DNA of 57,925 nucleotides, from IMG/VR virus record IMGVR_UViG_3300048922_000444, positions 1 to 57,925 of that record. One strand, written 5' to 3'. The notes under the pieces are model-generated. The model saw nothing but the letters and a program-made list of their open reading frames with translations, did not search any database and was not told the DNA's origin. A program made the position numbers and the translations under genes. Positions within the stretch are counted from its first letter, which is position 1; each line of letters opens with the position of its first letter. This DNA is from a virus. Shown piece by piece: positions 1-16,695 of the stretch.

Positions 1-1188
1 TCAGCGCCTGCGAGGTGGTTTCACGACCGGTACGCTGTGGTCGTACCGGCCTGTCGTCGTCGGCGACTTGTGCCCGGCCGCGTCCTGCTTGTCGCCTCGG
101 TTGCCGGCAGTGTCGGTGACGCCACGGTGCTTGAGGCCATGCATGGAGAAGCGTTCGCTTTCCTCGATCACACCCTCGCGCATCGCCATGTGGATGAAGC
201 GTTGCCACGCGCTGGACACGGATGATCGGGCAATCGGGTTGCCGGTCTGCTCGACCAGCAGAAAGCGCTGCTCCGGCCGTATCGGGATGGCGAAGTTGCG
301 GCCCTCGCGGTTCCAGATGGCATTGCGCCGGGCCACCAGCGCCTCCCACGCTTCGGTCATTTCGTCGTTCCACTCGGTGATCGACGCGCGCGAGCCTTTC
401 CGCCGGTCGCCATGCACGCCCTGGTCAAGTCGGTGGGCGTCGGTCAGCGTGCATACCTCGATCCCGCGCAGGCGTGCGCTGAAAGCCAGCACCATGGCTG
501 GTGCAAGGTATCCGGGGCAGCTGCCCTTGGTGTGGGGCGCCCTGGCGCCGCGCTCGTGTGCAAAGGCCAACACCTTGGCGAACGCGTCGGGCGTGGGCAT
601 CTTGTGTTCGCTCGCTTCTTTGGCCTGGCGCACGCCGGTTGCAGGGTTGTGCTTGCAGTAGCCGTGGCGCACGCCCCACGCGAGCGTGCGGCGTAGGTAG
701 CGGAACTGGTGATTTGCCTTGCTCGGAAACGGTGGCAGAGCGGGCTGGTTCCGCGTAGCCGGCCGGCCATTGGCGAACACCTCGACCAGGCGCTGCACGA
801 CCGGGGTGGTGATGCGGTCGACCGGCATGCTGCCGAACGGCGTGCCGTCCTTGCGGATGTAGTTGGCCAAGCTGTCGGCGTAGCGCCTGTAGTCGGCCTG
901 GGACTCTAGGCTCAGTTCCTTGAACTCGCTGGATTCATGGAAGCGGTCGAACAGGTAGCGCACCGTTCCGCGCTGCTGGCCTGTGGTCAGTGATTCCACG
1001 ATGGCATGCAGGTCGGACAAGCGCGCGCTCGCGTGGGCGACCGTGCGCTTCACGCGCCGGCCGCCCTCCGCGTGATCTTCATACACGAACCAGCGGTCGT
1101 CGTGCCAGTAGATCCCCTTCGGCAAGGCATCCTGCTCGATGTGCCCCGGTATCGCCGGGTTGAACTTCCTTTTTCTGCCGCGTGTCAT
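1..1188 (-). CDS. int: Tyrosine recombinase (prophage integrase)
   Basis: Site-specific recombinase that would integrate and excise the P2-like prophage; 395 aa from the ATG at 1188. The C-terminal half carries the tyrosine recombinase signature: an Arg in ARLRGIEVCTL, a Lys in RRKGS, the HGLKHRG box (HxxK instead of the usual HxxR, seen in some phage integrases), an AGH histidine, and the nucleophile Tyr in GRYDHS near the end. The frame stays open upstream of 1188, but that extension is the out-of-frame shadow of the next gene; the MTRGRKRK start overlaps the upstream stop as TGATG, implying translational coupling. The stop codon is the first base triplet of the window, so the left attachment site must lie just outside. 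Confidence 0.95.
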   Translation of the reverse strand: MTRGRKRKFNPAIPGHIEQDALPKGIYWHDDRWFVYEDHAEGGRRVKRTVAHASARLSDLHAIVESLTTGQQRGTVRYLFDRFHESSEFKELSLESQADYRRYADSLANYIRKDGTPFGSMPVDRITTPVVQRLVEVFANGRPATRNQPALPPFPSKANHQFRYLRRTLAWGVRHGYCKHNPATGVRQAKEASEHKMPTPDAFAKVLAFAHERGARAPHTKGSCPGYLAPAMVLAFSARLRGIEVCTLTDAHRLDQGVHGDRRKGSRASITEWNDEMTEAWEALVARRNAIWNREGRNFAIPIRPEQRFLLVEQTGNPIARSSVSSAWQRFIHMAMREGVIEESERFSMHGLKHRGVTDTAGNRGDKQDAAGHKSPTTTGRYDHSVPVVKPPRRR

Positions 1189-1409
1189 CAGATGTTGTCC
1201 TCTTCCCGTTCTTCGTGCTGGTGCGGATCGACCAGGCCCAGCGCCGCGTTCAGGGCGTCGAGCGTGGTCCAGATCCCGCCGTGGCGGTCGTACTTGTACC
1301 GGATACCCTGCCGGTCTGCCCACCGCCGCACGGTCGCCGCTCGGGGTGGCGGGCCGTGGGGAGTGCACAGTTCCTGCAGGACGTTGAATTGCACAATGCG
1401 GCTGCTCAA
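1188..1409 (-). CDS. DUF4224-like small DNA-binding protein, putative recombination directionality factor
   Basis: 73 aa protein directly upstream of the integrase. The segment with RRWADRQGIRYKYDRHGG resembles the core of DUF4224 proteins, compact wHTH-type proteins usually encoded just before integrases and suspected to act as excisionases. I chose the TTG start at 1409 because it overlaps the stop of the upstream gene (CTTTGA, sharing bases) and matches the compact packing of this operon; a longer frame from 1532 would overlap the upstream gene by more than 100 bases. Related in pattern to the two DUF4224 proteins at 57493-57925. Function is inferred from position and fold-like pattern. 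Confidence 0.7.
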   Translation of the reverse strand: MSSRIVQFNVLQELCTPHGPPPRAATVRRWADRQGIRYKYDRHGGIWTTLDALNAALGLVDPHQHEEREEDNI

Positions 1410-1612
1410 AGCTCGGACGCCTCCATCCACTCGCGCCGGCATACCCACTGCCGGCGCATTTCTTCCCGCAGGACTTCGGCGGCAGCGGGACCACGTTTCC
1501 CCGCGATGCGTGCTATCAGTTCGTCCACCCACCTGCCGCTGTTGTATCCCTGCCTGATCCAGTGGCGGGCCTCGCAGACCCGCCGCCGTTCCTCCATTGC
1601 GTCATCCATCAC
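1406..1612 (-). CDS. Small conserved phage protein (DUF7696-like)
   Basis: 68 aa, rich in Arg and Glu, with WIRQGY and KRGPAAAEVLREEM motifs that I recognise from a family of short prophage proteins near integrases in Xanthomonadaceae and Pseudomonas (DUF7696 style). No catalytic motif is visible. It overlaps the upstream gene by 4 bases (ATGA) and the downstream start by 4 bases, so it is part of the coupled leftward early operon. Role unknown. Confidence 0.75.
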   Translation of the reverse strand: MMDDAMEERRRVCEARHWIRQGYNSGRWVDELIARIAGKRGPAAAEVLREEMRRQWVCRREWMEASEL

Positions 1613-1887
1613 CCGGTACTTCTATCGCCCAGGCCCAGCCCGAGCTGGATCACATTCTTGGCATCGGCCGGAATCGGCACCGCTCGACCGTACAGGCGCG
1701 TCCACTCCTGCAGGGCCAGGTGGGGGCCGGGGTGTTTCTTCGTGCGGCCGCACTGGCATTCGATGAAGTGGCCGCCGCCGGCAGCTGCGCAGCGGCGGTC
1801 TTCCATCAATCGGGCACTGTGCCCCGCCTTGCACGGCGGGAGTGGCCAAGGGGCAGTTACCTGCCGCTGGGTCGTGGCGTATTTCAT
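1609..1887 (-). CDS. Hypothetical early phage protein with Cys/His pairs
   Basis: 92 aa from the ATG at 1887, which overlaps the methyltransferase stop as ATGA. It holds Cys at about 19, 33, 44 and 46 and His at 23, 40, 52 and 56, with a CQCGRTKKHPGPH stretch that could bind a metal ion. No family is recognised with confidence. The longer open frame upstream lies inside the methyltransferase gene and is rejected. Its place in a run of 4-base overlaps argues that it is genuinely translated. Confidence 0.75.
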   Translation of the reverse strand: MKYATTQRQVTAPWPLPPCKAGHSARLMEDRRCAAAGGGHFIECQCGRTKKHPGPHLALQEWTRLYGRAVPIPADAKNVIQLGLGLGDRSTG

Positions 1888-3620
1888 TGGCGAACCTCCC
1901 CTGGCATTGCCATCGCTACCGCGACATCGCGGACCCAAATAGGCGTGCTTGATAGCGCGAACGTCTGCCCCGTCCAGGCGAGCAATAGCGTGCGGCCGAT
2001 CTCTTCGGCGATAGCGCGTGCAGCTGCCGGGGGCACAGCGTTGCCTATGCGCTCGCGCCACGCCTGGTCGCTCATGCCATCAAGCTCCAGCTTTTCCTCG
2101 GGATCGATCAGCGACTGGAGTGCTGCAAGCTCCAGTGTCGTGAATGGACGATGCCAAGTCCCGTCCAGGCTACGGATGACGCACACCAGGTTCTCGCGAG
2201 GGTTCGGCAGGCGCGGATCGGCCACCGACCAACGACCGTTGTCATGCCCTGCGGAAGCGCTCACGGCGCCGCTGGGCGCGTCCCAGCGCACAACGCCGTA
2301 ATGCCCATTGGTGAGGTATGCGTCGCCCTGCTTTCGCTGATTGGCGGGCCTTGGGTCGGCGACTGCGAAAGCACCATGACCGGTGTCGCTGCGTGCGATC
2401 ACGGTGCGAGAGGGTGCGTCGAACGGGGTAACGGGGTACTTTCCAGCCCCTTTGAATACGCCGAGCGCACGAGGATCTTGCACGCATTGACCGCTCCCAT
2501 GGGCGCTAGTCACCGCGCCCGCCTCGGCCTGCCACGGCACGATCCGGTACTCGTTGTTGTGCTTTGCCGGCCCGCCGTGGCGCGGATCTGCGACCGAGAA
2601 CGTGCCCTGCCCAGGTGACTTCACGCCGATAATTGCTCCGGCGGTGTCGCCCATCCGCATTACGCCGAACTGTTGATACTGCGCGGCGCCGGCAGCTGCC
2701 CGAGGGTCATTTACGCGACAGCGATTGAGGCCAGATGCGGAGGCCAGATTCTCCGGAACCACCCGGTAGTCACGCAGGACGCCATCTTCAACCGCGAGCC
2801 GATTGAGGCTGCGCCAGTCGCTTCCCGCTTCCACGAAGGCCAGTCGCACCCACGTCTTCCACTGTAATGCAGGGACGCGATGCATCGGTCCTGCGCGGTC
2901 CACGTCGCCGGCATGTGCCATCCGCGACAGGACGGTGCCCACGGCCTGCAGCGGACGTGTCACCGGCTCGTACAGGAACGGCGGAACCTTCTCGGCATGG
3001 CGCGCCACCAGCAGGAATCGCTTGCGGCTCTGTGCCAGCCCGCCAAGTTCGCCGCAGTCGTGGGTCGTCTCGGCCACCACGTAGCCGTAGGAGCGCAGGA
3101 GCGCGGTGATCTGATCCAACAGCTGCCGGCCGCGTGAAGCAATGCGCGGCACGTTCTCGAACAGCAGCATCTCGATTGGGTCGTCCTTGTACGCCTCGCA
3201 CATGAGAAAGATGCCGCGCAGGGTGAGCCGATTGAGGGCCTGGTACTTGTCCGTGCGGCTCTTGCTCTCGGCCATCAGGCCCGAGAACCCTTTGCATGGC
3301 GCCGACAGGAACATGACGTGCGGGCGCTCGCCGCCGAACGCGCGGTGGATGTCTACCACGGTCGCCTCCCGCCATCCCTTCGGCGGCTCGCAACCCCAGA
3401 ATGCCCGGTACTGATCGCGGTCGAAGAGGTCCATCACCGTGCCGGGAACACCAGCGATTCGGTTGAAGTCTGCAATCGCAGCCGGGTCCACATCGATGCC
3501 GCCCAGGCACCGATAGTGGCCGTGTGCGGTTCCGATGTCGGGGCGAGCGTCGTTGAAGCCCTTGGCGCCGGCACCGAGTCCGGAAAACATGCCGGCGTGC
3601 AGGATCTCAAAATCAGCCAT
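1884..3620 (-). CDS. dcm: DNA cytosine-5 methyltransferase
   Basis: 578 aa enzyme that would transfer a methyl group from S-adenosylmethionine to C5 of cytosine. Visible motifs in order: motif I GMFSGLGAGAKGF (residues 10-22), motif IV SAPCKGFS with the catalytic Cys109, motif VI FENV (about 154-157), motif VIII QSRKRFLLV, a long target-recognition region of about 250 residues rich in repeated ADPR and DAPS segments, and the final GNAVPPAAARAI motif. No cognate restriction enzyme is seen nearby, so it is probably an orphan phage methylase protecting phage DNA from host restriction. Its start overlaps the upstream gene by 8 bases and its end overlaps the next gene by 4. Confidence 0.93.
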   Translation of the reverse strand: MADFEILHAGMFSGLGAGAKGFNDARPDIGTAHGHYRCLGGIDVDPAAIADFNRIAGVPGTVMDLFDRDQYRAFWGCEPPKGWREATVVDIHRAFGGERPHVMFLSAPCKGFSGLMAESKSRTDKYQALNRLTLRGIFLMCEAYKDDPIEMLLFENVPRIASRGRQLLDQITALLRSYGYVVAETTHDCGELGGLAQSRKRFLLVARHAEKVPPFLYEPVTRPLQAVGTVLSRMAHAGDVDRAGPMHRVPALQWKTWVRLAFVEAGSDWRSLNRLAVEDGVLRDYRVVPENLASASGLNRCRVNDPRAAAGAAQYQQFGVMRMGDTAGAIIGVKSPGQGTFSVADPRHGGPAKHNNEYRIVPWQAEAGAVTSAHGSGQCVQDPRALGVFKGAGKYPVTPFDAPSRTVIARSDTGHGAFAVADPRPANQRKQGDAYLTNGHYGVVRWDAPSGAVSASAGHDNGRWSVADPRLPNPRENLVCVIRSLDGTWHRPFTTLELAALQSLIDPEEKLELDGMSDQAWRERIGNAVPPAAARAIAEEIGRTLLLAWTGQTFALSSTPIWVRDVAVAMAMPGEVRQ

Positions 3621-4029
3621 TGGTCACCGCCAGGGCTGCCGCAGCGATAGCCGCGGCTGCTGCCTCACTTGCAGGCCGGGGGAGCATGTTGGCGACGGCC
3701 ATGGGGACGCCGATCCGGTCGAGGAAGTCGGCCAGGTCAGGGCTGATGGCGTCTTTTTCGTATTCGAAGATGGGTGGGCCCCCGTCCAGCACCCAACTGT
3801 TGCGGCTGCGGCGATGCCAGCGTTGCTCGACCGTGCGGACGGTGCCCATGGTCAGAGTAGCGATGACGACGATTGCATCGTGGCTGACCTTGATCAGCAC
3901 CTCGGCAGTGCTGTCGGGGTGCTGTGCAAGGTCGAAACCCTGGTGCGTGATAGCCTGCGCACCGGGTCCGGTGTCGGCCCCCTGCGAACATGCGGCGGTG
4001 GCTGGGTGCAACTCAGTCTGCTGGTTCAT
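3613..4029 (-). CDS. Hypothetical early phage protein
   Basis: 138 aa protein in the leftward early operon, ending in an Ala-rich tail (about residues 115-134). No catalytic or DNA-binding motif is recognised; the middle has a VLIKVSHDAIVVIATL hydrophobic stretch typical of a buried beta sheet rather than a membrane segment. It overlaps the methyltransferase start by 8 bases, which suggests a joint role or simple coupling with DNA modification. A 71-base gap separates it from the upstream gene. Confidence 0.75.
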   Translation of the reverse strand: MNQQTELHPATAACSQGADTGPGAQAITHQGFDLAQHPDSTAEVLIKVSHDAIVVIATLTMGTVRTVEQRWHRRSRNSWVLDGGPPIFEYEKDAISPDLADFLDRIGVPMAVANMLPRPASEAAAAAIAAAALAVTNG

Positions 4030-4100: not shown

Positions 4101-4373
4101 TTACAGGGTGTCGGCCAGGTCTTCGTCTGGCGTGCCGCCGGCGCGGTGGGCGTTGCCCAGCACCTGGCGCAGATCGTCTGCGACGTATGCGGCGACTGCG
4201 GCGACGTGATCGAGGGTGAAAGGAGAGGGCTGGCTGGTATCCAGCAGCGCGAGCAGATCCACTGCCTGCTGTGCCTGCCAGAGCCGGTCGATATCCAGTT
4301 CATGCACGCGGTAGTGGAGGCTGTTCAGCACCTCGGCCGGCGTGCGCGATGCGGCGCGGATGTAGGCACTCAT
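4101..4373 (-). CDS. Hypothetical early phage protein
   Basis: 90 aa from the ATG at 4373, which overlaps the upstream stop by 4 bases (ATGA). The protein is mostly helical in pattern, with paired Leu and Ala heptads (LWQAQQAVDLLALLDT, DHVAAVAAYVADDLRQVL). The same reading frame stays open far upstream through the structured leader, but that extension has no supported start. No family recognised. It belongs to the operon controlled by the 4627-4895 leader. Confidence 0.75.
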   Translation of the reverse strand: MSAYIRAASRTPAEVLNSLHYRVHELDIDRLWQAQQAVDLLALLDTSQPSPFTLDHVAAVAAYVADDLRQVLGNAHRAGGTPDEDLADTL

Positions 4374-4621
4374 GACCGCGCCCTCGGGCTGGTCAGCGGA
4401 TGTGGCGCGCACGCGTCGCCCCAGGCGACATGCACCTGGTCGATGGCGATCTGTATTTCGCCCAGCGTCAGCGCCTCCGGCGCCTTTCCTGCGCCGATCA
4501 GACGCGAGAAAAGGGCCTGCCAACAGGCGTGATTCCATTCGGTGGTGTCGGCGATCTGGCCGAAATAGTGTGCGATCTGGCGCGCGGCTTGGGCGGGCGC
4601 AACTTGGGTGTCGTGCGACAT
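4370..4621 (-). CDS. Hypothetical phage protein, first gene after the structured leader
   Basis: 83 aa protein, first coding gene of the leftward early operon. Its ribosome binding site (GGAG within TCAGGAGACG on the minus strand) lies inside an 8-bp perfect inverted repeat (4627-4634 with 4657-4664), so its translation, and through ATGA overlaps that of its downstream neighbours, is probably controlled by RNA folding. The sequence has no motif I recognise; it is helix-rich with several His and Trp residues. Confidence 0.75.
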   Translation of the reverse strand: MSHDTQVAPAQAARQIAHYFGQIADTTEWNHACWQALFSRLIGAGKAPEALTLGEIQIAIDQVHVAWGDACAPHPLTSPRARS

Positions 4622-4626
4622 AGGGG

Positions 4627-4664
4627 ACGTCTCCTGACTTGAGATTGAATCCTCGGGGAGACGT
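4627..4664 (-). promoter_or_regulatory. RNA hairpin sequestering the ribosome binding site of the early operon; seqC-like site
   Basis: ACGTCTCC (4627-4634) and GGAGACGT (4657-4664) form a perfect 8-bp inverted repeat. On the transcribed minus strand the 3' arm holds the GGAG ribosome binding site of the gene starting at 4621. The 5' side carries GTAGAAACGTCTCC, whose GTAGAAAC matches 7 of 8 bases of the complement of the seqB segment at 4691-4704. By analogy with phage P4 this would be seqC. Confidence 0.6.
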
Positions 4665-4683
4665 TTCTACGCGCCGCACCGAG

Positions 4684-4767
4684 GGTGTCGGGAGGTTAGA
4701 AACCGGAGTCAGACCGGCGGGCAGTGTTCCCCTTTCGGGTGTTGTATTACTGCCGCCCTCCCGACGC
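4684..4767 (-). ncRNA. Candidate CI/C4-like antisense immunity RNA
   Basis: On the minus strand this segment folds into a long stem: GTCGGGAGG (plus-strand complement at 4757-4765) pairs perfectly with CCTCCCGAC (4687-4695). Inside lies a second stem GGCGGCAGT / ACTGCCCGCC (one bulge) capped by CCC-GAAA-GGG. The 3' arm holds GGTTTCTAACCTCC, complementary at 12 of 13 positions to GGAGATTAGAAAC near the predicted transcript start (4842-4857). This matches the known P4 CI RNA design, where seqB of a small processed RNA pairs with seqA and seqC to cause termination. No RNA data support it here; it is an inference from pairing and layout. Confidence 0.55.
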
Positions 4768-4800
4768 AGAAGAGCGTCGGTGCGCTTGAATTGCAGGCGC

Positions 4801-4830
4801 AAAAAAACCGCGATGCTTACGGGCGCGGTT
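4801..4830 (-). terminator. Intrinsic terminator inside the early leader
   Basis: On the minus strand AACCGCG and CGCGGTT form a 7-bp stem around an 11-base loop, followed by a run of T (plus-strand A4801-A4807). It lies between the seqA-like segment and the candidate antisense RNA, so it would cut transcription before the early genes unless read through. It would also stop antisense transcription coming from the primase gene. Confidence 0.75.
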
Positions 4831-4841
4831 GCCGCTGACTT

Positions 4842-4895
4842 GGAGTTTCTAATCTCCTTGCGGCGGACTTTGCCCTCGTTTTTTGCGGCTGTCAA
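4842..4895 (-). promoter_or_regulatory. Leftward early promoter and seqA-like segment
   Basis: On the minus strand a consensus -35 TTGACA (4890-4895) and a weak -10 CAAAGT (4867-4872) are separated by exactly 17 bases. Transcription would start near 4860, immediately before GGAGATTAGAAACTCC (4857-4842), which is itself a small hairpin and is complementary to the seqB segment at 4691-4704. This is the position of seqA relative to PLE in phage P4. Confidence 0.6.
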
Positions 4896-4956
4896 GGCAT
4901 TTCTGCGATGAGCGAGTGGCAGTTGGCCGGATGCACGGGCCTGCTGGCGACGCCTC

Positions 4957-4991
4957 TTGTCATCTGCAAAAGTGTCTAATATAATGGACAC
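4957..4991 (+). promoter_or_regulatory. Promoter and operator of the toxin-antitoxin operon
   Basis: -35 TTGTCA (4957-4962), a 17-base spacer and a perfect -10 TATAAT (4980-4985). The toxin ATG at 4992 falls where transcription would start, so the mRNA is probably leaderless. GTGTC (4972-4976) and GACAC (4987-4991) form an inverted repeat around the -10 box, a natural operator for autorepression by the antitoxin. Confidence 0.7.
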
Positions 4992-5282
4992 ATGGCGACG
5001 ATCAAGACCACCACCGAATTCAACGAATGGTTCAAGGGACTGCGCGACAGGCAGGGCCGGCAGCGCATCGCCATCCGCATCGAGCGGCTGGCGCAGGGCA
5101 ACCCCGGCAAGCACCGCGTGCTGACCGGCGGGGTGGCCGAGTTGAAGATCGATTTCGGCCCCGGTTACCGCGTGTACTACACCGAGCGCGCGGGCATCAC
5201 CTACATCCTGCTGTGCGGCGGCGACAAGGATTCCCAGCCTCGCGACATTGAGCAGGCACGCAAGCTGGCCGGTCACCTCTGA
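4992..5282 (+). CDS. higB: HigB-type toxin of the RelE/ParE superfamily (Gp49/PF05973 family)
   Basis: 96 aa. The pattern FNEWFKGLRDRQGRQRIAIRIERL, then GNPGKHRVLTGGVAELKIDFGPGYRVYY and a closing LLCGGDKDSQPRDIEQARKL, is that of phage-derived 'addiction module killer' proteins, usually ribosome-dependent mRNA interferases. Toxin-first order with the antitoxin downstream is the normal layout for HigBA modules. The start is fixed by the promoter just upstream, which leaves no room for a leader or ribosome binding site. It stabilises the prophage or acts as abortive defence; neither can be told from sequence. Confidence 0.9.
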   Translation: MATIKTTTEFNEWFKGLRDRQGRQRIAIRIERLAQGNPGKHRVLTGGVAELKIDFGPGYRVYYTERAGITYILLCGGDKDSQPRDIEQARKLAGHL

Positions 5283-5336: not shown

Positions 5337-5699
5337 ATGAACAACAAAGTGCAGCTGCACGACTGGGACGCCGCCGAACACCTGGTCGATGACCAGGACA
5401 TCGCGTTCTTCATCGAAGCGGCTCTGGAAGAAGCCCCCGACGATGCGGCCTTTATCGCTTCTGTGCTGGGCATCGTGGCCCGCGCCCGCAACATTGCGGA
5501 CCTGGCACGTACCACCGGCATTGCCCGCGAAACGCTCTACAAGATGCTGCGCGGTGAGGGCAACCCGACCATGGGCAACCTGAGCAAGCTGGCGAATTCG
5601 CTGGGGTTCCGCCTGAGCCTGGTCCCTATCGACAGCAACGGCAAGCCGGTCAAGCGCAAGCCAAAGGCGCGGAAGACGGCCACCAAAAAGGTCGCGTGA
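5337..5699 (+). CDS. higA: HigA-type antitoxin (addiction module antidote, HI1420 family)
   Basis: 120 aa. A putative antidote protein with an Xre-type helix-turn-helix at about residues 57-95 (LARTTGIARETLYKMLRGEGNPTMGNL). The first 50 residues, LHDWDAAEHLVDDQDIAFFIEAALEEA, match the dimerisation part of this family. The tail is Lys/Arg-rich. It lies 54 bases after the toxin on the same strand. It should neutralise the toxin and repress the shared promoter at the GTGTC/GACAC operator. Confidence 0.9.
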   Translation: MNNKVQLHDWDAAEHLVDDQDIAFFIEAALEEAPDDAAFIASVLGIVARARNIADLARTTGIARETLYKMLRGEGNPTMGNLSKLANSLGFRLSLVPIDSNGKPVKRKPKARKTATKKVA

Positions 5700-5710: not shown

Positions 5711-8413
5711 TCATGCCTTGAACACCCAGCACTTCACCGTCGCCGGCGTACCCATCTGCCCCATGCGAAACGAGCTGTTCACGGCCACGTTCGTGTCCAG
5801 GCACTTGTGCCGGCGGGAATCGCGCAGCAGCGAGCGCAGCACCTTTAGGTCGGCCAGCTGCTGGGAATGATGCGCCGCCTTGGCGGCGAATTCATTTAGG
5901 TTGATAGCGATCCTGTTGGGATCGCGGGAGTGGTTGACCCCCGGCCCGCCGTCGTTCAACGATTCCAAGTAGTCGTACACCTCCCAGAATTCGTTGACCA
6001 GGGCGTTATCAGCACTGACCGCGCTCTGGCGCTCTATCGCCGCGGCCACCAGCGCCTCGCGGGTGGCGACCACAATCTCCTCGGGAATTTCCATCACCAC
6101 GCGCAGGGCGTCGAACAGCGCCAGCATCTGCGCGTGGTTTTTGATGACGCGCTCCATGCGCAGCTCGCCGCGATCACGCAGCTTGGCCTCATAGAAGCGG
6201 GCGCGCTCCTTGAACGTTTCCAGCACCTGGCCTTCGGCACGCACAGCCTTGATCAGGAAGTGGCTCAATTCCTCGACGCTCAGCCCGTTGAGGTTGTCGG
6301 CCGCGATCCGGCTTTCAGTCGTCACCTGCGGTTTGCGGAAATGCAGCTTGACGATACGGGTCAGGATTGCCTCGCTGCCATCCACAGCAGCGTTCTGGCT
6401 GATGCAGATGGTGCCCAGGAACGGCGGCTCGTAGGTGTCGTTGCCGCCGTTGCGCACGCCGCGCGTTGCCAGCGTGCCGCCGCCGAAGTAGTCCTTCAGT
6501 TCGTCCCATTCAAACGACTTTGCATGTGCCCGCTCGGCGTCGCTGCGGTCGGCCTCCAGCAGCACAACCGGCATGCCGGAGATTTGGCCCATGGCGCGGG
6601 CGCGGCCGGCTTTCGATGACTTGGCCGGGTCGAAGCCCTCATAGTCACTGCGGCCCAACAGCTTCCACAGGAAGGTCAGCAGGGTGGTCTTGCCGGCGCC
6701 GGCCTCACCGGTCGCTTCCAAGAAGGGGAACGACTTTGTGCTGCTGCGGATCTGGTTGGCGAACAGCGAACCGAACCAGAATGTCAGGGCGACCATGCCG
6801 TGGGTGCCAAAGCACGTCCACAACCAGGGCAGCCAGTCGGTGCGGAACTGCTCGGGATCGCGCTGAATATCCAGACGGATGGACTTCTGCGTTGATTTCA
6901 CGCGCAGGTTCTTGAATTCGAAATAATCCTCGGCATTGGCAATGCTCAGTTCGCCGTCGCGCACCGCAACGTCGCCCAGGATGTAGGAAGAGTGCTCGGC
7001 GCTGTAGCCGACAAAGTCGATGGTCTGCACCTTGGTGATGTTGTAGAGCACGTCCCGAATGATGCAGTCGAGCTGGTGCCCGCTGCCGGTGAAGACGGCG
7101 CCCTGCGCCATGCTGATCAGGCGCTTCTTGAACTCGCTGGCGCTGGCAACCTGGGCACCGGTAAAGGTGCCCTTTACCGGCGGCGCGTCATGGGGAAAGC
7201 TGACCCGGAAGAAGTACCAGCTTTCGTCGGTCTTCTCATGGCTCTGGAAGTACAGGGCCTCGGGGTAGCAGTTGGCGATTTCTTCCACGCTGCAGCAGGC
7301 GCGGCGGATCTTGTCGGCCTCGCCTTCATCCAGCTCTTCATCTGGATCTTCCTTCGACTTCGACCGCTCGGTGCAGAGCTTGTCGAACTTGGTGCTGTCG
7401 AAATGGAACCAGTACAGGCGCGAGCGGTGTTCTAGGTGGAACTCTCTGCGCTGGCTGCGGGCGTACATCAGCACGCCCTTATCGATGGCCGTTCTGGCCA
7501 GCAGCACGTCCCCGTGATAGCGGGCATCGGCAATGTCAGCGTCCCACTGCGCTTGCTGCTCTGCGGTCCCGCTCGCGGCCAGGGCGCGCAGGTGCAGGTC
7601 GTTCCAGTCGGTCTTCTTTCCGGCCTGCTGGGGGATCAGCGCCGCGCGGCACTTGAAGCCCATGACCTCGGCCCGCCGAACGTGCTTGCGCATGTATTCA
7701 CACGCCGCCGGCTCGTTGTCATAGGCCCATACCAGCGTCGGCAGGTCGTTTCGGCGCAGATCGAGCAAAGCGCGCAGGGACTGCTCGGGGAAAGCATTGC
7801 TCGACATGCCCGACGCGGCGGCGTTTCCGTGCAGCATCAGGGCGATGGCGTCGAAGATGCCCTCGGTGATCCAGACCTCACGCGCGGTCGCCAGCAGCGC
7901 TTCGGCGGCAGGTGCAATCCACCACACGCCGGCATAGCTCTGGCCGGGCATGAAGCGCGCCTTCTGCTTACCGAATCGGTGAGCGCGGTCGATCAGGCGC
8001 TCCCAGTACCCGCCTTTGGCGAGCGGGAAACGCACAGTCGCGGTGCCCTGGTTGATCTTGCGATCGTGGTAGCTCTCCTGCGTATACAGGCCGCGCAGGG
8101 GGGCCAGGTCGAAGCCGCGCGAATACTGCAGGTAGGCGTCAGCGGCGGCATTGGGCGCCGTCTCCGTGCGCTCGTGGCGCTTGGACCAGTCATCGAACAG
8201 ATCCTCATAGACATCCTTGACGCTGACCTCGCGTGCGCACTTGGCCTGCCGGCCACAGCGCAGCACCCACGGCTTGAGGTGGCTGGTGTACAGCTCCTTC
8301 TTGCCGCAGGAGGGGCATTTGCCCCCGCGCATGTAGCCCGTACTGGCACGATGCTTGAGGCCGTAATCCCGCTCGATGCGCTGCAGGACTTGCTGGCGGA
8401 TGTCTTCTTGCAT
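5711..8413 (-). CDS. Phage DNA primase/helicase with zinc finger, TOPRIM and ATPase domains
   Basis: 900 aa replication protein. Residues 33-59 form a zinc finger (C33, C36, C53, C59). A TOPRIM primase domain follows with VWITEGIFDAIAL around residues 178-190 and later acidic residues (AYDNE, KTDWND). An ATPase/helicase domain has Walker A GEAGAGKTT near residues 567-575 and VVLLEADRSD near 615. This domain order is that of P4-alpha-like replication proteins and replaces the rolling-circle A protein of P2 itself. It ends 11 bases from the convergent antitoxin gene; it would be transcribed from the leftward promoter at about 9550. Confidence 0.92.
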   Translation of the reverse strand: MQEDIRQQVLQRIERDYGLKHRASTGYMRGGKCPSCGKKELYTSHLKPWVLRCGRQAKCAREVSVKDVYEDLFDDWSKRHERTETAPNAAADAYLQYSRGFDLAPLRGLYTQESYHDRKINQGTATVRFPLAKGGYWERLIDRAHRFGKQKARFMPGQSYAGVWWIAPAAEALLATAREVWITEGIFDAIALMLHGNAAASGMSSNAFPEQSLRALLDLRRNDLPTLVWAYDNEPAACEYMRKHVRRAEVMGFKCRAALIPQQAGKKTDWNDLHLRALAASGTAEQQAQWDADIADARYHGDVLLARTAIDKGVLMYARSQRREFHLEHRSRLYWFHFDSTKFDKLCTERSKSKEDPDEELDEGEADKIRRACCSVEEIANCYPEALYFQSHEKTDESWYFFRVSFPHDAPPVKGTFTGAQVASASEFKKRLISMAQGAVFTGSGHQLDCIIRDVLYNITKVQTIDFVGYSAEHSSYILGDVAVRDGELSIANAEDYFEFKNLRVKSTQKSIRLDIQRDPEQFRTDWLPWLWTCFGTHGMVALTFWFGSLFANQIRSSTKSFPFLEATGEAGAGKTTLLTFLWKLLGRSDYEGFDPAKSSKAGRARAMGQISGMPVVLLEADRSDAERAHAKSFEWDELKDYFGGGTLATRGVRNGGNDTYEPPFLGTICISQNAAVDGSEAILTRIVKLHFRKPQVTTESRIAADNLNGLSVEELSHFLIKAVRAEGQVLETFKERARFYEAKLRDRGELRMERVIKNHAQMLALFDALRVVMEIPEEIVVATREALVAAAIERQSAVSADNALVNEFWEVYDYLESLNDGGPGVNHSRDPNRIAINLNEFAAKAAHHSQQLADLKVLRSLLRDSRRHKCLDTNVAVNSSFRMGQMGTPATVKCWVFKA

Positions 8414-9572: not shown

Positions 9573-10025
9573 ATGATACTGATTGATGATCCGCAAGCCG
9601 GTGTAGGCCAGCGCCTTCGGTTGGAACGGGAGCGCCTAGAGATGAGCGTGACCGAGATGGGGACGCGCGCGGGCAAGAACCGCCAGACGCAGATGCGCTA
9701 CGAAAACGGCATGAACTCGCCCACTGCGGCGTATCTGCATCAGCTGGAGCCGCTGGGGGTCGATATCGGCTACGTGCTGACGGGGTTCCCCTCCGAGCTG
9801 CACGACGACGAAGCGTCGATCTTGGCCCAGTTCCGTGCGGCCTCGCCGGAGCTGCGCCGAGCAGCGCTTTCGGTGTTGGGGTCGGCGGCGGCCGCAGTCG
9901 CGGCGAGCGGCTCAATAGTCGGTGGAGACAACTCTGGACAGGTCAACGCCGGGCCAGTGACACAGGGCGACGTGTCGTTTCAAGTTGGGTCTAAGAACCG
10001 TCGCGGTAGCAAACCGTCGAGCTAA
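9573..10025 (+). CDS. Phage repressor, Xre-family HTH (CI-like)
   Basis: 150 aa, the only rightward gene of the early switch region. Residues 10-60 form an Xre HTH (GQRLRLERERLEMSVTEMGTRAG, RQTQMRYENGMNSPTAAYLHQL). The C-terminal half lacks the Ala-Gly cleavage site and Ser/Lys pair of SOS-cleavable repressors, and ends in a Gly/Asn/Ser-rich segment (GGDNSGQVNAGPVTQGD). So it is a short, non-LexA-like repressor, probably not induced by RecA-driven self-cleavage. It faces the Cro-like gene with operator half-sites between them. Confidence 0.88.
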   Translation: MILIDDPQAGVGQRLRLERERLEMSVTEMGTRAGKNRQTQMRYENGMNSPTAAYLHQLEPLGVDIGYVLTGFPSELHDDEASILAQFRAASPELRRAALSVLGSAAAAVAASGSIVGGDNSGQVNAGPVTQGDVSFQVGSKNRRGSKPSS

Positions 10026-15513: not shown

Positions 15514-16680
15514 TCAACCGCTGATGCGGCTGGGGAAGTCGGCGAAGTAGCGGTCGGTGATGCGCTGGTTCAGCTGCAGGCTCTCCAGCGGCGGCACGGG
15601 GGTGTAGTCGTAGTCGATCACCAGCTTGCCGGCCGACAGCGTGGTCGGCAGGTTGGCCGCTTCGTCGTACCAGGCGTTGGCGTCGATGATGTAGCCGCCG
15701 GCTTTCAGCTCGCGGAATTTGGCGTTGATGCTCTCCAGAATGTCCTTGACCTGGCTGGGGTGCAGCGGCTTGTCCATGTAGGTCATCATCGCGTCGGCGA
15801 TGGTGTCGGCCAGGATCTGCGCGGTGCGGGTGGCCGGCTCGAAGGCGAACAGCACATCGTCGCTGAGCGTGCGCGATCCCCAGAAGCGGTAGCCGTTGGC
15901 GTTGACCAGCGTGGTCACGTCGGCCGCATTGAGCAGGCCGGCGTCGGTGGCCGGGTTCTGCAGATCCCAGTGCACGTCGCGGCTGATGCCGGTGACGCCG
16001 GCGACGGTGACGTTGGAGAGCGACTTGTGCCAGCCCTGTTCCTGATCGATCTTGGCGCGCAGGCCGACCGCCCGCGCGGTGGCGTAGGCCAGGTCGGCGG
16101 TGTTGGTGGTGGTGTTCCACGCGACGAAGTCGGGCCAGATCATCATCAGCTCGCGCTCGCTGAACTCGGCGCGGTAGGTCAGCACTTCGGCCACCTTGCC
16201 GTTGGCCGAGGCGCTGATGTAGGCCATGGCGCGCAGGCTCTTGGCGACGATGGCCAGGGCGGTCACCACCTCCTGATTGTCCAGGCCGGGCACGGCCAGG
16301 ATGCGCGGCTTCACGCCCAGCTGGGCCTCGGCCACCAGCAGCGCCTGCATGCCGGTGTAACTGCCCGTCTCGGTGCCGCCGATCACGTTGCTGGTGGTTG
16401 CCGGCTCGGCCTCGCCCTCGGCCACGCGGACCACGACCGTGATCGGGTTGGCCTGGTCGGCAATGGCGCGCAGGCTGCCGGCCAGGGTGCCCTTGATGCC
16501 GGCCTTGGCGATGGCGCCGCGCACGTCGGTCAGCAGCACCGCCTTGTTGAGCGGGAAGGCGGTGGCATCGGCGTCCTCGGCGGTGCAGACGATGCCGATG
16601 ATGGCGGTGGCGACGGTGCGGATGGGGCGGATGCCGCCATTGACTTCAACGACGCGTACGCCGTGGTGGTACTGGTCCAT
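15514..16680 (-). CDS. FI: Tail sheath protein, P2 gpFI
   Basis: 388 aa contractile sheath subunit. Features include the N-terminal YHHGVRVVEVNGGIRPIRTV, PVGIVCTAEDAD-like segment at about residue 28, a GSYTGMQALL motif, and the C-terminal RFWGSRTLSDD and PVPPLESLQLNQRITDRYF typical for P2 FI (396 aa). It lies upstream of the tube gene with a 25-base gap. Confidence 0.96.
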   Translation of the reverse strand: MDQYHHGVRVVEVNGGIRPIRTVATAIIGIVCTAEDADATAFPLNKAVLLTDVRGAIAKAGIKGTLAGSLRAIADQANPITVVVRVAEGEAEPATTSNVIGGTETGSYTGMQALLVAEAQLGVKPRILAVPGLDNQEVVTALAIVAKSLRAMAYISASANGKVAEVLTYRAEFSERELMMIWPDFVAWNTTTNTADLAYATARAVGLRAKIDQEQGWHKSLSNVTVAGVTGISRDVHWDLQNPATDAGLLNAADVTTLVNANGYRFWGSRTLSDDVLFAFEPATRTAQILADTIADAMMTYMDKPLHPSQVKDILESINAKFRELKAGGYIIDANAWYDEAANLPTTLSAGKLVIDYDYTPVPPLESLQLNQRITDRYFADFPSRISG

Positions 16681-16695
16681 TGCTGGCTCCTTGGG

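Follow-up and report, generated by a model that had tools for sequence, protein, structure and literature searches.

The viral sequence analyzed here over its full length of 57,925 nucleotides (IMG/VR record IMGVR_UViG_3300048922_000444, positions 1 to 57,925; hereafter the window) carries on its minus strand, between positions 4627 and 4895, an element that is very probably a self-targeting antisense RNA switch of the C4/P4 type, built around an RNA of the RF02221 (sRNA-Xcc1) family. It has the parts and the layout of the switches of phages P1 and P4, both of its recognition arms co-vary with their sites, and elements of this kind recur in front of antirepressor, SymE, and XAC0095-family genes. 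An initial annotation had described the region as a P4/C4-like antisense switch, and when the minus-strand letters were re-read directly, every element that it named was found where it had been placed: a TTGACA-17-CAAAGT promoter, a seqA-like site, an intrinsic terminator, a folded RNA with a 9-bp stem and a capped inner stem that pairs with seqA at 12 of 13 bases, a seqC-like site, and a hairpin over the first ribosome-binding site. The architecture thus stands, but the description was incomplete, having overlooked the RF02221 family, a second recognition arm (a′) with its complements AAGTCAG at 4835-4841 and 4634-4640, and the sites at the ribosome-binding site. The features of the element, with the evidence for each, are as follows.

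4890-4895, minus strand: −35 element TTGACA (sequence)
4867-4872, minus strand: −10 element CAAAGT, weak, at a spacing of 17 that is kept in relatives (sequence)
4845-4857, minus strand: target site b1 (seqA), GGAGATTAGAAAC, complementary to b′ at 12 of 13 positions (covariation)
4835-4841, minus strand: target site a1, AAGTCAG, followed by CGG, complementary to the a′ loop (covariation)
4801-4830, minus strand: intrinsic terminator, a hairpin and seven T, between the target sites and the RNA (sequence, fold, stem covariation)
4679-4765, minus strand: antisense RNA, Rfam RF02221 sRNA-Xcc1, with its folded core at 4687-4765 (covariance model, fold)
4727-4747, minus strand: near-invariant core of hairpin 2, ATACAACACCCGAAAGGGGAA, a hallmark of RF02221 that is absent from the P1 and P4 C4 RNAs
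4707-4713, minus strand: recognition arm a′, the third-stem loop TCTGACT (complementarity, covariation)
4691-4703, minus strand: recognition arm b′ (seqB), GTTTCTAACCTCC, complementary to 4845-4857 at 12 of 13 positions (covariation)
4663-4670, minus strand: downstream site b2 (seqC), GTAGAAAC (sequence, relatives)
4634-4640, minus strand: downstream site a2, AAGTCAG, overlapping the Shine-Dalgarno sequence by one base (sequence, covariation)
4629-4634, minus strand: Shine-Dalgarno sequence GGAGAC (sequence)
4627-4664, minus strand: hairpin pairing the Shine-Dalgarno sequence, 4657-4664 with 4627-4634 (sequence, fold)

The RNA is a new member of RF02221, matching the covariance model over its full length (positions 1-87 of 87) at 78.4 bits against a cut-off of 53 bits, with an expectation value (E) of 1.1e-12 over the whole window. 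Its outer stem of 9 bp (GTCGGGAGG/CCTCCCGAC, 4757-4765 with 4687-4695) encloses two inner hairpins, and the fold is more stable than that of shuffled sequences (z −3.2). Across the family and in distant hosts the internal loop of hairpin 2 (ATACAAnA-CCCGAAAGGG-GAA) is almost invariant despite not acting as one of the pairing arms; it may serve as a protein or RNase contact or in a tertiary fold.

The C4 RNAs of P1 and P4 served as positive controls for the search for complementary runs. In P1 this search returned b1 TTGACAG, a1 GTTAGTG, b2, and a2 GTTAGTGA at the Shine-Dalgarno sequence, and in P4 it returned b1 GTGAGAA, a1 TTCACAGG, b2, and a2 TTCACAGGA, likewise at the Shine-Dalgarno sequence. 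Both share with the window the order b1, a1, RNA, b2, a2/Shine-Dalgarno, start codon. The window reads b1 at 4845-4857, a1 at 4835-4841, terminator at 4801-4830, RNA at 4679-4765, b2 at 4663-4670, a2 at 4634-4640, Shine-Dalgarno sequence at 4629-4634, and ATG at 4619-4621, and because this order matches, the element is assigned to the P1/P4 plan. It shares with C4 of P1/P7 and its leader motif c4-a1b1 (RF01695, RF03163) the three-stem fold of an outer stem and two hairpins, the a′ and b′ arms, the upstream b1-a1 pair, and a second pair covering the ribosome-binding site; with the P4 immunity region (CI RNA, seqA/seqB/seqC) it shares the terminated leader, the antisense RNA between flanking sites, and the position at the start of an early operon. 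There are also differences. Hairpin 2 of the window RNA has its long internal loop where C4 has a plain tetraloop, no antirepressor gene is recognizable in the window, and the P4 RNA belongs to RF01695, not RF02221, its sequence being unrelated to that of the window beyond layout. The window leader matched the isrK model only weakly (14.3 bits, compared with 60.8 bits for the P4 leader), and the c4-a1b1 model had no match in 4500-5000 at E up to 10, whereas the P1 leader matches it at 51 bits.

Relatives were gathered by exact match to a conserved 18-base core, ATACAANACCCGAAAGGG, which returned at least 120 viral and at least 120 genome stretches. These comprised 179 distinct stretches with sufficient flank, the outer stem being present in 153, to which were added 40 copies from seven xanthomonad genomes (2 to 10 copies each); including the phage Smp131, the total was 194 records or 183 distinct RNAs. 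A site a1 was found in 163 of these RNAs and b1 in 136, both occurring together in 128, with b1 lying 5′ of a1 in 123. Downstream, a2 was found in 132 and b2 in 103 of the 183; a2 was in contact with a Shine-Dalgarno-like motif in 113 of the 132 and within 20 nt of a start codon in 122. A promoter-like site preceded b1 in 85 of 136 relatives (3.7% of shuffles), and in an alignment most xanthomonad-type leaders retain the −35 TTGAC; the window promoter was not listed by a consensus promoter scan because its −10 element is weak. A strict terminator test was positive in 70 of the 183 RNAs (shuffles 1.75%), and a terminator is therefore not claimed for all classes. The trinucleotide CGG directly follows a1 in 113 of 163 loci, as it does in P1. 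Several look-alikes with the same core and a different outer stem came from marine Synechococcus single-cell genomes (L148, L171, L172, L193).

Both upstream pairings, including the seqA-seqB pairing of the initial annotation, co-vary across these relatives. In the window, b1 lies in a GGAG-N8-CTCC hairpin (4842-4857) whose loop holds its code letters, and in 52 loci a GGAG-N7-9-CTCC hairpin could be located upstream without use of complementarity. Its loop matched the b′ arm of its own RNA at a mean of 7.3 of 9 positions, compared with 5.3 for other b′ arms, a sum of matches reached in 0 of 100,000 permutations (z 11.7). In a 41-sequence alignment of contiguous leaders, helix covariation for b1:b′ was 0.282, against 0.096 ± 0.010 for shuffled and at most 0.084 for slid pairings, with 53 two-sided changes; the terminator and outer stems were covarying or conserved. 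Unprompted, RNAalifold added a helix (a1:a′) joining the stretch of leader that immediately follows b1 to the third-stem loop; at one of its pairs, as many as 24 of 41 sequences carried two-sided changes. For the xanthomonad-type class, z was 19.3 for the match of a′ to upstream a1 and 7.1 for that to downstream a2; for all other loci, the corresponding values were 24.7 and 24.2 (0 of 5,000 permutations throughout). Relatedness was controlled for with pairs of loci whose RNA 5′ parts were at least 90% identical and whose a′ arms differed; both own pairings outscored both swapped ones in 70 of 83 pairs. In the closest relatives, L016, L048, and Smp131 (L242), both b′ and a′ have letters unlike those of the window, and all four sites change accordingly; a b2:b′ helix of 7-8 bp is retained despite the code changes in L016, L048, and L242. 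One position inside the b1:b′ helix (columns 5:197 of alignment A2) is mismatched in 40 of 41 sequences, as if deliberately kept unpaired.

In P1 and P7 the RNA is cut from a longer transcript by RNase P. Trans action, processing, and immunity are carried over to the window from P1/P7 and P4 by analogy, and the direction of effect and the extent of the operon are likewise proposals. Transcription from the promoter (4895-4867) would produce a leader with the two target sites b1 and a1, followed by the terminator; transcripts that read through would contain a three-stem RNA of 80-90 nt, to be trimmed out. The b′ arm and a′ loop of this RNA may then pair with b1 and a1 of nascent transcripts, favoring termination at 4801-4830, and with b2 and a2 downstream, masking the Shine-Dalgarno sequence of the 83-aa open reading frame (ORF) that follows. 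The result would be an autoregulated off-switch that keeps expression of this ORF and of its downstream genes low in the lysogen and confers code-specific immunity, silencing an incoming phage whose two-part code is identical.

The main rival is a folding switch acting purely in cis, in which each molecule's arms find their b1/a1 and b2/a2 partners within that molecule, without any free RNA acting in trans. It owes that rank to the fact that co-variation does not separate cis from trans, and it gains from all sites lying on one presumed transcript and being paired intramolecularly by RNAalifold. We regard it as improbable, since published accounts present P1/P7 C4 and P4 CI as processed RNAs that act in trans (PMC5320573, PMC4825925), sRNA-Xcc1 has been detected as a separate RNA species some 88-100 nt long (PMC2996969), and the element, like those of P1 and P4, has its targets duplicated on the two flanks of the RNA.

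Several points weigh against a C4-type switch that also covers the ribosome-binding site. Against the RF01695 C4 model, the window RNA scores 18.9 bits, well below the cut-off of 45 bits that P1 and P4 exceed (68.8 and 74.9 bits), so that the likeness is one of outline and not of membership, and the whole record holds no RF01695 member; the RNA lies outside the C4 family by cut-off yet appears, from its letters, to work like a member of it. Locus selection depended on an exact core motif, and matches are maximized in some of the site calls, as they are in the permutations. Within the window alone, b′:b1 is the sole significant duplex (−15.4 kcal/mol, P 0.001 against shuffles), those formed by a′ and by b2/a2 being too short for significance (P 0.27-0.86). 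The hairpin that the initial annotation saw hiding the first ribosome-binding site is present at 4657-4664/4627-4634 and also in L016, L048, L074, and L242, but it lacks covariation there and in the window alone folds no better than shuffles (z −0.08). The a′ arm, the downstream pairings, and this hairpin therefore rest on comparison with relatives. The xanthomonad chromosomal (XAC0095) class has no visible b2 site, nor was the downstream pair covering the ribosome-binding site seen in it, and the ribosome-binding-site arm is thus not universal.

Downstream of the element in the window lie the following genes, together with a candidate repressor on the opposite strand.

4370-4621, minus strand: first ORF, 83 aa in length, with conservation across the phage group (ORF list; comparison with L016, L048, L074, and Smp131)
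4101-4373, minus strand: second ORF, 90 aa (ORF list), to which profile searches gave no function
3613-4029, minus strand: ORF of 138 aa (ORF list), to which profile searches gave no function
1884-3620, minus strand: C-5 DNA methyltransferase (Pfam PF00145)
1-1494, minus strand: tyrosine integrase reading frame, its true start further inside (phrog_1)
9573-10025, plus strand: helix-turn-helix protein, candidate protein repressor (domain and profile matches)

The initial annotation took the methyltransferase-integrase operon to be the target. Both genes do lie further down the same strand, but the first gene is the 83-aa ORF, and control of the operon would extend to them by inference. P1 combines a protein repressor with C4 RNA. 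The companion claim that such two-layer immunity would be unusual in a P2-like prophage does not hold, given that the P2-like Smp131 (Peduoviridae), the closest named relative of the leader region, carries the same element; there the RNA is followed by small ORFs, a primase, as in the P4 operon, and later an integrase. The window's head and tail genes match phage contractile-tail families.

The possibility that the 83-aa ORF is itself a short antirepressor, controlled by the RNA as in most relatives, is slighter still than cis-only folding. It draws on a match to phrog_17048, labelled ‘anti-repressor’ (E 3.4e-9), and on antirepressors being the commonest cargo in relatives; we rejected the PHROG label because the reading frame of the annotated relative, Smp131 gp37, runs across the RNA leader. 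The match is confined to the portion of gp37 beyond the RNA. In the 83-aa ORF no Pfam or NCBIfam domain was found, and its AlphaFold model (predicted local distance difference test score 60) is too poor for a fold search. The ‘anti-repressor’ annotation of CH36_gp37 (5922-6494 of L242) is probably a misannotation that has spread into PHROG labels.

Among the next ORFs of 138 relatives, picked by a simple rule, about 84 fell into one antirepressor blast cluster, so that the P1-type arrangement of an antirepressor gene under the RNA, absent from the window, is frequent elsewhere. Domains of the next ORFs include Bro-N (44), P22_AR_C (15), P22_AR_N (12), KilA-N (12), AntA (6), ORF6N (6), and Rha (4); SymE toxins account for 10 of the 138. 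In named phages an RF02221 RNA precedes ant in Aaphi23 and Rac-SA53 and a KilA-N gene in Acinetobacter 4316, and among the xanthomonad chromosomal copies the tested examples precede XAC0095-family proteins. In one phylum sample analyzed under strict filters, RF02221 was found in 58 of 398 species genomes. The copies within one genome gave no sign of selection for differing b′ codes (8 of 128 pairs identical; permutation mean 4.7). With both arms counted, the own score was 14.6 and that for co-resident partners 10.7, equal to the between-genome level; the copies are orthogonal in practice, with no sign of extra selection.

It is likely, if somewhat less so than the assignment of the window element, that RF02221 as a whole represents a second C4-type lineage, made up of code-bearing switches with two arms, directed mostly at their own transcripts and guarding phage antirepressors, integron symE, and xanthomonad XAC0095-family genes, with up to about ten copies per genome bearing mutually different two-part codes. 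The family was named for sRNA-Xcc1, published as an integron-encoded trans-acting virulence small RNA (sRNA) and proven by northern blot as an end-mapped 88-nt RNA (PMC2996969). The least credible reading is that the window RNA instead regulates unrelated host mRNAs in trans, as might be suggested by the HrpG/HrpX control reported for sRNA-Xcc1 and the Xylella sXF RNAs and by the host or plant targets predicted for them (PMC12189769, PMC2996969); the arms co-vary with sites in the RNA's own neighborhood, and the published targets are predictions made without the RNA's own leader sites. RF02221 RNAs may still have additional trans targets alongside the own-transcript sites of a C4-type switch. 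The 2025 integron paper treats the position of sRNA-Xcc1 upstream of symE as a divergent arrangement and leaves it unexplained. No own-transcript target of sRNA-Xcc1 is described in the literature found, nor is the RNA joined there to a C4-type mechanism, the two being named together only side by side in one table (PMC12189769); that literature did not include Chen 2011, on the trans-acting naming, and earlier recognition is possible.

C4-type RNAs are themselves already known, as are multi-copy chromosomal relatives and the link between P4 and IsrK. In Acinetobacter baumannii, the available part of one report describes Group 1 C4-like sRNAs as multi-copy, chromosomal, variable in the a′ loop, and processed from longer transcripts (PMC5320573); they resemble the window RNA in the a′ loop but match the C4 motif, and covariation with own-transcript targets is not shown in that part. 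In Gifsy-1, the terminated leader RNA IsrK/STnc1160 is homologous to P4 SeqA and is followed by a processed RNA and an antirepressor, although IsrK is an activator, unlike the leader proposed here (PMC4825925). What is new is that RF02221 is reassigned to the C4 type as a separate, second lineage, marked by a near-invariant internal loop of its own. If correct, this reassignment would make the ‘trans-acting virulence sRNA’ label of sRNA-Xcc1 wrong or secondary and give an orphan, widespread RNA family a testable mechanism with readable specificity letters, from which prophages sharing an immunity code might be predicted. In the symE class, the original setting of sRNA-Xcc1 (L145, L206, L223, L227, and others), a′ sites lie upstream and at the symE Shine-Dalgarno sequence, which makes symE its likely own target. 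The pattern points to a reuse of phage immunity switches in the control of toxins and chromosomal genes, and it carries a warning for whole-genome target predictions for RF02221 RNAs, which ignored the RNAs' own leader sites.

In seven xanthomonad genomes (G001-G007; L263-L302) RF02221 reaches as many as 10 copies in a genome, many of which precede small XAC0095-family genes; almost all copies come with a leader of their own whose b1 and a1 match, and no b2 is visible. Aaphi23 (NC_004827) carries both a C4 RNA (RF01695) and an RF02221 RNA, at 6280-6364 and 16602-16686, with the RF02221 copy before ant. In the window, a RelE/HigB-like toxin (4992-5282, plus strand) and a helix-turn-helix antitoxin (5337-5699, plus strand) lie between the primase and the leader, back to back with the latter, and are preceded by a near-consensus promoter (TTGTCA-17-TATAAT, 4957-4985, plus strand).
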